Source: Vicingus serpentipes
Lineage (GTDB): Bacteria > Bacteroidota > Bacteroidia > Flavobacteriales_E > Vicingaceae
DNA length: 64,000 bases
Direction: 5' to 3'
Assembly: GCF_007993035.1 (NCBI RefSeq)
Contig: NZ_VOOS01000001.1
Span: forward strand, 186,001-250,000
Numbering within the stretch: position 1 is the stretch's first letter; every line of letters begins with the position of its first letter. Below are positions 1,872 through 59,556 of the stretch, in pieces. Made by a program: the position numbers and the translations under genes. The notes under the pieces were generated by a model. That model was given only the letters and a program-made list of their open reading frames with translations. It had not been told where the DNA came from and made no database searches.

Positions 1872-4337
1872 TTACTTTTTTTTCGATTTAAACAACTTAT
1901 TACTCCATTTATGTTTTTTTGCTTCTGCAACTTCTTCTGCATAATAACCACTTCCTGCCCCATATCCATATGCATAACCATGACCATATCCATAGCCATA
2001 TCCATATGCAGATCCATAACCATATTTTCCACCGTAAGCATTTGTACCTGTTTCAATACTATTTAGAATAATAGACAATTTATTTATATTGTTATCTAGC
2101 ACTAATTTATCAACGTTGTTTACAAAATACTTTTTAGAATACTCACTTTTAAATACATATATAGGATAATCAGCTTTTTTAAGCATCTCCATAGCATCAG
2201 AAACTAGACCTATTGGGGGGTTATCAATGATTACATAATCATAAGTTTGTTTTAATTCATTTACAACCTCTTCTAATTTTCCACTTATTATTAACTCTGA
2301 TGGATTTGGAGGTATAGGCCCAGAGGTTATAAAGTGTAAATTCTCTAATTCACTTTGATGAATGCACTCCTCTATTGTTGTTTTATTAATCAATATTGTA
2401 CTCATTCCAATATTATTCTCAACGGCAAACCCAACATGAATTTTAGGTTTTCTCATATCCAAATCAATTATCACAACTTTTTTACCTGAATAAGCAATTA
2501 TTCCTGCTAGATTAATAGCACAAAAAGTTTTTCCTTCTCCTGAAATTGTTGAGGTAATGGCTATTGTTTTGTTTGTATCTCCTTCAGATATAAATTGTAA
2601 ATTAGAACGAAGCACCCTAAAAGATTCTGCAATAATCGATTTGGGATTTTTATTCACGACTAATTGAGAAACTGGAATATCATATTTATATTTTGGTACA
2701 ACACCTAAAATACCAAATGAAGAGTGAGACTGTCTAACTATATCATCTAATGATGAAATTGTATTTTTAATTATATATTTAATTAGCAACAACACTATAC
2801 TTAGAAAAACACCTGTTATAAAGCCAAAAGAAATAATTAATATTTTATTTGGTGAAATTGGATTTTTAGGTATACCTGCTTCATCTAAAATTGTATGTTG
2901 AGATACAAAACCAGCCTCAGATATAGAATACTCTGTTCTTTTATCCATCAATAATGAAAAAAATTTCTCATCTATTGACAAAACCCTTTGTAATCTAGCA
3001 TACTCTAGTTCATTAGCTGGTATATTTGTGTAGTGACTTTCAATCTCATCAATTTTCCGAATTAAATCTAATCGTTGATTAGTTAATTTTTTTATTAATG
3101 TGTTTATACTTTCAGTTAATAGCTTTTTTTGAACATCTATTTTGTAATTCATTGAATTAATAGCTCCGCTATTATCAGTTACCTCATAAAGCATATTTTC
3201 TTTTAATAAGAGTAATCTTTTCAACTCTGTAACTAATGAAGTAATTCCCGAACTATAATCTGTGCCAGCAAGAATTGATAATAATTTATAAACATCAACA
3301 TTCTTTAACTCTGATTCAATTGAAGAAGAAATTTCAACCAATACATTCTTTTGAAGTTCTATATCTATTAACTGATCTTCTAATTTTGTACTCCTATCAA
3401 AATATTTCTGGGTAGCATCTGCCCCTTTAAAATTATTATCTTTTTGAAATTTTTGAATTTTATTTTCAGATAGTTTTAACTTATTATAATACTTATCAAG
3501 TTGGATATCAACAAATTCTAAAATTTTCTTTGAACTTTTACTTCTCTCTTCAATATCAAAATCGATATATTCTTCAGCTATAGCTGTTACCATATCTCTA
3601 GCTTTTGCAGCATTATAATCTTTAAAAGATATATTAATCGTTTTTGCTGAAATATTAATAGGAAAAACACTTAATTTAGAAATATAATTATTGGCTAAAC
3701 TGGCATTATCATTTAATTTAAAATAGATTACTGCTCCTATAAAATCAGTTACTTTTTCTTTTAATATCTTTATTTTAAAATCAATTTTATCAATAACAAT
3801 AAGTTCTCCACTCTTAAAAACCCCTAAAATTTCTTCACCATCCCTTAACTCAAACTGGTTAATATCATTTATTACAACATTAAATGTATGATTAATAATG
3901 GACGAATCTTTGATATTAAACTCCACATCTATAGGTGCAGACTTATATAATTCATGCTCTAGCAAAGTTCCTTTATTATAAAAACTAATAGCTAGAGGTA
4001 AACGAGAAATAGCTCTTCTAAACAACAGTTTAGATCTTAGTATTTCTATGTCTTTATCTATTGTATTGTTTTCATGAAAATTATCAACATTCAATACTTG
4101 ATTAGCAGTATTTAACGAACCAACTTGAAAAATTAAATTAGATTGGTATACAGGTATAGTATAACGTAAATACAAATAAGAAGAGAGCAAACAGAATAAA
4201 ATAATTACAAAAAACCATTTTAAGTGTGATCTTAATAGGTGTAATAAAAGAATAGGATCTGATTCCGTATTAAAAGTGGAATGCTTCCTATTTTTAATAA
4301 CATCTTGATTGCTATTTATTTGATTATTACTTTCCAT
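1872..4337 (-). CDS. Wzc-like polysaccharide co-polymerase / BY-type tyrosine autokinase
   Basis: The protein has 821 residues. An N-terminal Wzz-type domain carries a membrane helix near residues 37-58. A long periplasmic coiled-coil section (about 270-470) follows, then a GNVR-like segment, a second helix near 500-525, and a cytoplasmic kinase domain from about 560. The kinase shows Walker A STISGEGKTF, Walker A' VVIIDLDMRKP and Walker B DYVIIDNPP. The last ~60 residues hold a tyrosine/glycine-rich tail (12 Tyr between about 768 and 799), as expected of the autophosphorylated cluster of BY-kinases. It controls chain length and export of a surface polysaccharide at the inner membrane. Its ATG overlaps the stop of the Wza-like gene by one base (TAATG), consistent with coupled translation. 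Confidence 0.92.
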   Translation of the reverse strand: MESNNQINSNQDVIKNRKHSTFNTESDPILLLHLLRSHLKWFFVIILFCLLSSYLYLRYTIPVYQSNLIFQVGSLNTANQVLNVDNFHENNTIDKDIEILRSKLLFRRAISRLPLAISFYNKGTLLEHELYKSAPIDVEFNIKDSSIINHTFNVVINDINQFELRDGEEILGVFKSGELIVIDKIDFKIKILKEKVTDFIGAVIYFKLNDNASLANNYISKLSVFPINISAKTINISFKDYNAAKARDMVTAIAEEYIDFDIEERSKSSKKILEFVDIQLDKYYNKLKLSENKIQKFQKDNNFKGADATQKYFDRSTKLEDQLIDIELQKNVLVEISSSIESELKNVDVYKLLSILAGTDYSSGITSLVTELKRLLLLKENMLYEVTDNSGAINSMNYKIDVQKKLLTESINTLIKKLTNQRLDLIRKIDEIESHYTNIPANELEYARLQRVLSIDEKFFSLLMDKRTEYSISEAGFVSQHTILDEAGIPKNPISPNKILIISFGFITGVFLSIVLLLIKYIIKNTISSLDDIVRQSHSSFGILGVVPKYKYDIPVSQLVVNKNPKSIIAESFRVLRSNLQFISEGDTNKTIAITSTISGEGKTFCAINLAGIIAYSGKKVVIIDLDMRKPKIHVGFAVENNIGMSTILINKTTIEECIHQSELENLHFITSGPIPPNPSELIISGKLEEVVNELKQTYDYVIIDNPPIGLVSDAMEMLKKADYPIYVFKSEYSKKYFVNNVDKLVLDNNINKLSIILNSIETGTNAYGGKYGYGSAYGYGYGYGHGYAYGYGAGSGYYAEEVAEAKKHKWSNKLFKSKKK

Positions 4338-57932: not shown

Positions 57933-58466
57933 GTGTTTAAAAATCCTTTTCAAGTAGCTATTTCATTTGCTGTAGTAGCTCTTTTAGTTAAGCTTATTAT
58001 TTTTACGCTTGAAGCTCAACATGGTGCAATGGAAACTTATATCCGATACATCTATATGTTAATATTATTAACAGCTGTGTTTTTTGGAATAAGAAGTAAT
58101 AAAATTACTGAAGAAGGTCCTACTTCTTTTGGACAAGATTTTAAAGCTGGGGCCAGAACTGCAGCTTTTTTCGCTTTACTTGTAGCTGGTATTACATATG
58201 TTTATTATGCAAAAATTGATGTAAACTTTTTCCCTATCATGAAAGCTGATTTAATCAGTCAATATGCTGATATGATTCCTGATTTAATTAAAGAAAAAGG
58301 CTTAAAAGAAGCGAAAGCAATTACTCAAAATAACATTATTGGTTTAAACACTATTTTTTCTCCCTATTCGCAAGCTACCTACACCTTGTTTGGTTTAGTT
58401 TTTATGGGAATGTTTAATTCTGTTGTTTTTGCCTTGGTTATGAAAAAAATACCTGGATTTAAATAG
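57933..58466 (+). CDS. DUF4199-family membrane protein (GTG start)
   Basis: A 177-residue protein with four hydrophobic segments (about 8-28, 35-55, 72-92 and 145-168). The sequence AISFAVVALLVKLIIF with GPTSFGQDFKAGARTAAFFALLVAG is typical of DUF4199, a Bacteroidota family of unknown function. Start codon is GTG at 57933, supported by the family-like N-terminus. The C-terminus overlaps the end of the convergent anti-sigma gene by 8 bases, and no terminator separates them. Confidence 0.83.
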   Translation: MFKNPFQVAISFAVVALLVKLIIFTLEAQHGAMETYIRYIYMLILLTAVFFGIRSNKITEEGPTSFGQDFKAGARTAAFFALLVAGITYVYYAKIDVNFFPIMKADLISQYADMIPDLIKEKGLKEAKAITQNNIIGLNTIFSPYSQATYTLFGLVFMGMFNSVVFALVMKKIPGFK

Positions 58467-58893: not shown

Positions 58894-59449
58894 GGCGTAA
58901 TTGGTTAATTAAAGTTACATCTTTTTCTGTTAAAATAGATTTAAAACTCTCTCGTGCTCTATAAAGTTTTACCCTCACGTTACTTTCTGAAAACTTAGTT
59001 ATTTCTGCAATTTCTTTTAGTGACATTTCTTCTAAATAAAAGAGGGTTAGCATCTCTTTAGCATCAGTTGATAATTTATTAAAGTAATACTGAATTGTTT
59101 CATTTAAATCTTCGTTATCAAAAAGTGCTATAATATTATCTCCATTTAATGTGTTTTCTATACTAGGAGAAATTTCAGTTGTTTCTAATTTATTTATTCT
59201 AATGTAGTTTAAGGTTTCTCTTCTTGCAACGGTGTAAACCCAAGTTTTTAATTTTGAGTCTCCTTTAAACTGCTCTATTTTTTCGATACACTTTATTAAT
59301 ACATCTTGAGTAATTTCTTCAGCCACCTCATTATTGTTTAATATCCTAACACAAAGCACATATACAAACTGCTGGTAATTATTTACAAAATAATTAATAG
59401 CAGAAGTTTGCTTATTAATAAGGCCCAATATTAAATCTGAATCTTTCAA
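58886..59449 (-). CDS. ECF-type RNA polymerase sigma factor
   Basis: A 187-residue protein when started at the TTG at 59449 (MKDSDLILGLI). Region 2 includes VRILNNNEVAEEITQDVLIKCIEKIEQF and LKTWVYTVARRETLNYIR; region 4 includes LSTDAKEMLTLFYLEEMSLKEIAEITKFSESNVRVKLYRAR. The frame is open from a GTG at 59476, but that codon lies next to a promoter-like -10 element, so the downstream TTG is preferred, giving the usual start of ECF factors just before region 2. It overlaps the anti-sigma gene by 8 bases and faces the DUF6249 gene. Confidence 0.9.
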   Translation of the reverse strand: MKDSDLILGLINKQTSAINYFVNNYQQFVYVLCVRILNNNEVAEEITQDVLIKCIEKIEQFKGDSKLKTWVYTVARRETLNYIRINKLETTEISPSIENTLNGDNIIALFDNEDLNETIQYYFNKLSTDAKEMLTLFYLEEMSLKEIAEITKFSESNVRVKLYRARESFKSILTEKDVTLINQLRHG

Positions 59450-59471: not shown

Positions 59472-59499
59472 GACACACATATACATAAATACGTTACAA
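59472..59499 (-). promoter_or_regulatory. Putative ECF promoter facing the sigma gene (TTGTAAC ... TGTGTC)
   Basis: On the minus strand TTGTAAC (59499-59493) is followed by TGTGTC ending at 59472, with 18 bases between GTAAC and the final GTC. It agrees with the general ECF pattern of AAC in the -35 and GTC in the -10 element. The same two motifs with the same spacing face the DUF6249 gene. Confidence 0.65.
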
Positions 59500-59528
59500 C
59501 TATTTTAAAAAAATATTTTTTTCTTTTT

Positions 59529-59556
59529 TTGTAACATCTAAAAACAAACCTGTGTC
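59529..59556 (+). promoter_or_regulatory. Putative ECF promoter facing the DUF6249 gene (TTGTAAC ... TGTGTC)
   Basis: TTGTAAC at 59529-59535 is followed by TGTGTC at 59551-59556, with 18 bases between GTAAC and the final GTC. This is identical in motif and spacing to the opposing site at 59472-59499. The site ends 32 bases before the ATG at 59589. Confidence 0.65.

Follow-up and report, generated by a model that had tools for sequence, protein, structure and literature searches.

In ECF systems the sigma factor is restrained, until a signal arrives, by an anti-sigma factor that is co-transcribed with it. The BcrS-AbcS system (ECF16) of Brucella melitensis, together with the bcrXQP operon, is autoregulated and induced by HOCl, and its promoters, deduced from 5'-RACE, gave the consensus (T/C)GTAAC-N17-CGAA (PMC8315932). 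The locus described here, found in a 64 kb stretch of DNA (the window), resembles it in having a sigma/anti-sigma operon and a target operon with matched TGTAAC -35 promoters, here predicted from sequence. It belongs to a different phylum, and its -10 element is of the GTC type (TGTGTC in the window), where that of Brucella, and thereby of the ECF16 (BcrS-like) group, is CGAA. In Acinetobacter the direct regulon of SigAb comprises three targets only, and both SigAb-AabA-AabB and RpoE-RseA-RseB of E. coli share with our locus an autoregulated ECF factor, a membrane anti-sigma factor and a further protein; in those systems, however, the additional proteins, which are not known as DUF6249, are encoded inside the sigma operon, and the promoters differ from those of the window (PMC12153292).

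Within the Bacteroidota, CirY-CirZ-Spy and EcfO-Reo of Phocaeicola vulgatus are ECF/anti-sigma pairs with a small regulon, as is predicted for the present locus, but their targets are the Spy chaperone and adjacent genes, or NigD proteins, whereas the predicted target in the window is a DUF6249 gene; further, Reo spans from the cytoplasm to the cell surface, unlike the 144 aa anti-sigma candidate of the window (PMC13114119). The ECF promoters proposed for Bacteroides thetaiotaomicron have a TGTT -10 element (PMC12596196), compared with GTC in the present module. No paper on a GTAAC promoter of Bacteroidetes ECF factors was found in the part of the literature covered.

The features of the locus are collected in Table 1. 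Based on sequence comparison we consider it very probable that they form an autoregulated ECF sigma/anti-sigma circuit, with the DUF6249 gene as its conserved and nearly only outside target.

Table 1. Predicted features of the sigma/anti-sigma and DUF6249 locus, in positions of the window
Feature	Position	Strand	Remarks
Membrane anti-sigma factor (predicted), 144 aa	58459..58893	-	Zinc-motif domain with two TM helices; reading frame overlaps the stop of sigma
ECF sigma factor, 187 aa	58886..59449	-	TTG start; regions 2 and 4; PF04542 6.5e-15, PF08281 4.5e-13, TIGR02937 7e-29
ECF-type promoter (predicted) of the sigma/anti-sigma operon	59472..59499	-	-35 TTGTAAC 59493-59499, -10 TGTGTC 59472-59477; conserved in orthologs
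ECF-type promoter (predicted) of the DUF6249 gene	59529..59556	+	-35 TTGTAAC 59529-59535, -10 TGTGTC 59551-59556; conserved in orthologs
DUF6249 small inner-membrane protein, 116 aa	59589..59939	+	Three long helices; PF19762 1.4e-15

The sigma factor scored 100.6 bits against TIGR02937, and its matches to PF04542 and PF08281 were above the cut-offs; no Pfam or NCBIfam profile of region 1 or 3 matched, and its length of 187 aa is close to the 190 aa or so of ECF factors. The protein is accordingly classified as an ECF (group 4) factor. Its longest open reading frame starts with a GTG at 59476, within the -10 element. The TTG at 59449 is conserved in 9/9 family orthologs checked (L006-L014 compared), and judged from this it is likely the real start, which would place the promoter about 22 nt ahead of the gene. 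The TTG start common to all nine family sigma orthologs suggests weak translation of the sigma factor. In many other Bacteroidia (L182-L185, L197-L199 and L201) the GTC of the -10 element ends just 9-13 nt ahead of the sigma ATG, and a nearly leaderless sigma mRNA is therefore expected there.

The anti-sigma candidate carries an Hx3Cx2C motif in its N-terminal domain and is encoded beside the sigma gene, as is characteristic of class I zinc anti-sigma (ZAS) factors; in the alignment the columns H4 and H30xxxC34xxC37 are invariant in 9 orthologs. We interpret the protein as a class I anti-sigma factor of the zinc-motif kind, predicted to bind both sigma and zinc. It shares HxxxCxxC with the class I anti-sigmas ChrR and RsiW, and a low-confidence model and a weak profile match resemble their domain: residues 1-65 of the model (mean pLDDT 68, which is low) aligned with ChrR at Z 8.5 and rmsd 4.5 over 64 residues, and the profile match to RsiW reached E 0.012. 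Unlike in ChrR and RsiW, the domain is joined to two predicted TM helices with a loop of about ten residues between them. No Pfam or NCBIfam domain was detected in the protein. With 144 aa and a short loop it is not of the FecI/FecR or Reo type, where a large anti-sigma factor carries a periplasmic or surface domain. The HxxxCxxC motif is absent from most related modules elsewhere. Convergent to the anti-sigma gene lies a gene for a DUF4199 membrane protein (57933-58466), which keeps this position in several relatives (L006, L007 and L012).

The DUF6249 protein matches PF19762 with 57.6 bits against a curated cut-off of 33, and all 57/57 aligned relatives match the same family at E <= 0.01. 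The AlphaFold2 model (mean pLDDT 90.5) has helices at residues 2-37, 53-77 and 83-115. After the first helix the aligned proteins share a conserved, positively charged segment, RRLEHLEKLKMIEKGMD, whose charge suggests that it is a cytoplasmic loop. Against the PDB the model had no match at E <= 0.001, and when PDB sequences were searched with a profile, only chance-level matches came up. In the part of the literature covered, no bacterial study that describes DUF6249 was found, and the name itself occurs solely in one plant kinase study.

The preliminary description had pointed to two matched divergent sites with TTGTAAC and TGTGTC and exactly 18 bases from GTAAC to GTC, and both were located at exactly the positions it gave. 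The minus-strand site reads TTGTAACGTATTTATGTATATGTGTGTC and the plus-strand site TTGTAACATCTAAAAACAAACCTGTGTC, i.e. both are TTGTAAC-N15-TGTGTC or, in shorter form, GTAAC-N18-GTC. Dinucleotide shuffles of the 64 kb window gave 0.11 expected matches to TGTAAC-N16/17-TGTC, against the two found, which are the two promoter sites. A search of the whole genome (2,918,678 bases) with TGTAAC-N15..17-GTGTC returned three matches: the two window sites and one other, which is in the wrong orientation and situated where a coding region begins. An AAC-type -35 and a GTC-type -10 element ahead of the sigma factor's own gene is the pattern of ECF autoregulation, supported here by sequence and conservation.

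To the family sample of 46 genomes an order-level search added none, giving the identical 46. A DUF6249 relative was present in 11/46 genomes, and ten of these 11, window included, have a divergent sigma gene and both sites. It had been set beforehand that absence of the motif pair from orthologous intergenic regions would speak against the proposed circuit; the pair is present in 9/9 family orthologous loci besides the window, with GTAAC...GTGTC or GTAAC...TTGTC on both sides of the locus. In the more distant family relatives L015 and L016, genes for DUF6249, sigma factor and membrane protein stand in one operon.

PF19762 was found in 97/396 Bacteroidia genomes. Profiles for both proteins, built from the fetched locus surroundings, were used to classify 110 non-redundant loci, of which 105 have an ECF sigma gene beside DUF6249, mostly in divergent orientation: 78/110 are immediately divergent (one scored by hand), 8/110 are divergent with genes between, 17/110 have DUF6249 followed by sigma on one strand and 2/110 the opposite order, while 5/110 showed no sigma gene within the stretch. 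Two of these five were resolved with more sequence. In G311 the sigma gene is about 2 kb distant and the site is present; in G144, where the two genes are 275 kb apart, DUF6249 has two sites in tandem ahead of it and the sigma gene has one. The other classes of the phylum have a sigma gene at 35/35 DUF6249 loci, 30 of them divergent, so the pairing holds overall for 140/145 loci. Short two-helix proteins adjoin nearly every DUF6249-linked sigma factor. One locus, L131 (G283), has DUF6249 and both sites and no recognisable adjoining sigma gene; the gene has possibly been lost or broken.

The motif was also recovered without prior assumption. All pairs of 5-mers and 4-mers with spacers of 14-19 were counted in the 78 divergent intergenic regions of Bacteroidia, and the top word toward DUF6249 was GTAAC-N18-GTCA (36 loci), and that toward sigma GTAAC-N17-CGTC (25 loci), each against a shuffled maximum of 7. 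Of these regions, 64 have GTAAC-N17..19-GTC toward DUF6249 and 62 have it toward sigma; 59/78 have it both ways, compared with 0 in 100 first-order resamplings. When the GTAAC-to-GTC spacer was scanned from 6 to 40, the counts for the two directions peaked at 18 (49/45 loci), followed by 17 (11/11) and 19 (5/6), and most other spacers were found in 0-2 loci. A minor second peak was seen at spacer 15, with 6 loci each way. Where other genes intervene, both sites are kept at 8/8 loci, which gives both sites in 67/86 divergent loci class-wide. At least one strict site is missing in 19/78 immediately divergent loci, and the strict motif is absent also from many DUF6249-sigma operons; those relatives would thus use another sequence or promoter. 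In relatives the -10 element takes the forms CGTC, TGTC and AGTC, and in the other classes the top word was AACC-N17-GTC, present both ways in 16/30 regions. A chance origin of the motif pair is rejected on the basis of the shuffles, the spacer scan and the conservation, and the comparisons support that the circuit arrangement, as predicted from sequence, is conserved across the phylum.

To estimate the size of the regulon we used strict patterns, from which weaker members may escape, with the reversed pattern as control. In ten family genomes TTGTAACA-N15/16-TGTC gave 21 matches, 15 of them within the module, and the 6 off-module matches were no excess over the 12 in the control. In fifteen class genomes TGTAACC-N16-CGTC gave 34 matches with 18 within the module, and again the 16 off-module matches showed no excess over the control (28). 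In three genomes (G338, G215 and G414) the two module promoters are the sole matches. With no such excess outside the module, the strict regulon is in essence confined to the module, and a large regulon was rejected on the same grounds, with one exception. Two genera of family f34 (G144 and G389) have a gene for a DUF2807 (GIN domain) lipoprotein that is preceded, at a distance of about 15-30 nt, by a site (L180, site at 1501; L212, site at 3071), and this gene is likely an added regulon member.

The proposal that the sigma factor drives the DUF6249 gene as well as the operon to which sigma itself belongs found strong support in the comparison, through the 9/9 orthologs, the 67/86 divergent loci and the covarying spacers. 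Among 67 loci with both sites, from 17 families, 62 have equal spacer lengths at the two sites, against 40 on average and at most 51 in 5000 shuffles. The base preceding GTC is shared in 54 of these loci, against 28 on average and at most 40 in the shuffles, which do not correct for ancestry. Such agreement is the trace expected if one protein reads both sites. Further, the 101 linked sigmas group together in one clade (support 0.96), apart from the other 16 sigma-family proteins that the window genome encodes, and no divergent pair was found at any of those 16 genes. The existence of these 16 genes could also mean that the promoters are real and read by a different ECF factor, the adjacent sigma recognising another sequence, and indeed a further ECF sigma gene in the window genome has a single GTAAC-N18-GTC just upstream (L237, 1435-1460). 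We regard this as very unlikely, given that the pair is tied to one sigma subfamily across 17 families, that the spacers covary, that the linked sigmas are one clade and that unlinked gene copies still carry the site. Recognition of both promoters by one sigma subfamily is thus the supported reading of the sequence comparison. It should be noted that the two TTGTAAC elements of the window face each other as inverted copies, as would be seen if GTTACAA...TTGTAAC were an inverted-repeat operator for a dimeric repressor or activator instead of a pair of -35 elements. Between loci, however, the distance from one element to the other varies from 15 to 221 bases, yet GTAAC to GTC stays fixed at 17-19, and sites also persist single, far apart or unlinked. 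As the spacing is constant inside each site and not between the elements, the operator is rejected and carries hardly any probability in our judgement.

In the circuit we propose, the two-helix zinc-motif anti-sigma factor would keep the sigma factor at the membrane. The signal would arise in or at the inner membrane, since the anti-sigma has two helices and almost no periplasmic part, and would release sigma, which would then take RNA polymerase to the two matched, outward-firing promoters. From the one, sigma's own operon would be transcribed, with positive feedback through sigma and negative feedback through the anti-sigma; from the other, the DUF6249 gene, the output besides the sigma operon. 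As the pairing and the matched switches recur across much of Bacteroidota, we hold it as almost certain that DUF6249 is a constant member of the sigma factor's circuit. Regarding its role, we give about even chances to DUF6249 being a dedicated component of the circuit, with feedback on the sigma/anti-sigma complex. Somewhat short of even is the chance that the circuit is as proposed and DUF6249 a plain effector without regulatory function, acting as the single output to repair or change the inner membrane. Such a role would suit a membrane protein that is small, has three helices and has a promoter of its own, and the f34 motif ahead of the DUF2807 envelope lipoprotein gene indicates that effectors can be added; the 140/145 pairing with sigma and the first place of DUF6249 in DUF6249-sigma-anti-sigma operons are, as we judge, what would sooner be expected of a regulatory subunit. 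The near-obligate pairing and the first-gene operons therefore lead us to favour a feedback or sensing role over that of plain effector. In a wider form, possible though rather doubtful, DUF6249 might be a third regulatory subunit throughout Bacteroidota, in systems whose whole direct regulon is the system itself and which use DUF6249, instead of a periplasmic sensor domain, to sense and reset the state of the inner membrane.

In a coevolution study recognisable class I anti-sigmas adjoined only 6% of Bacteroidetes ECF factors (PMC7406223). The two-helix proteins beside the DUF6249-linked sigmas may be part of the anti-sigmas missed in that count. Throughout the phylum the DUF6249 family is now tied to a single ECF sigma subfamily and a single promoter sequence, and this link to a sigma factor offers a direct means of switching DUF6249 on.
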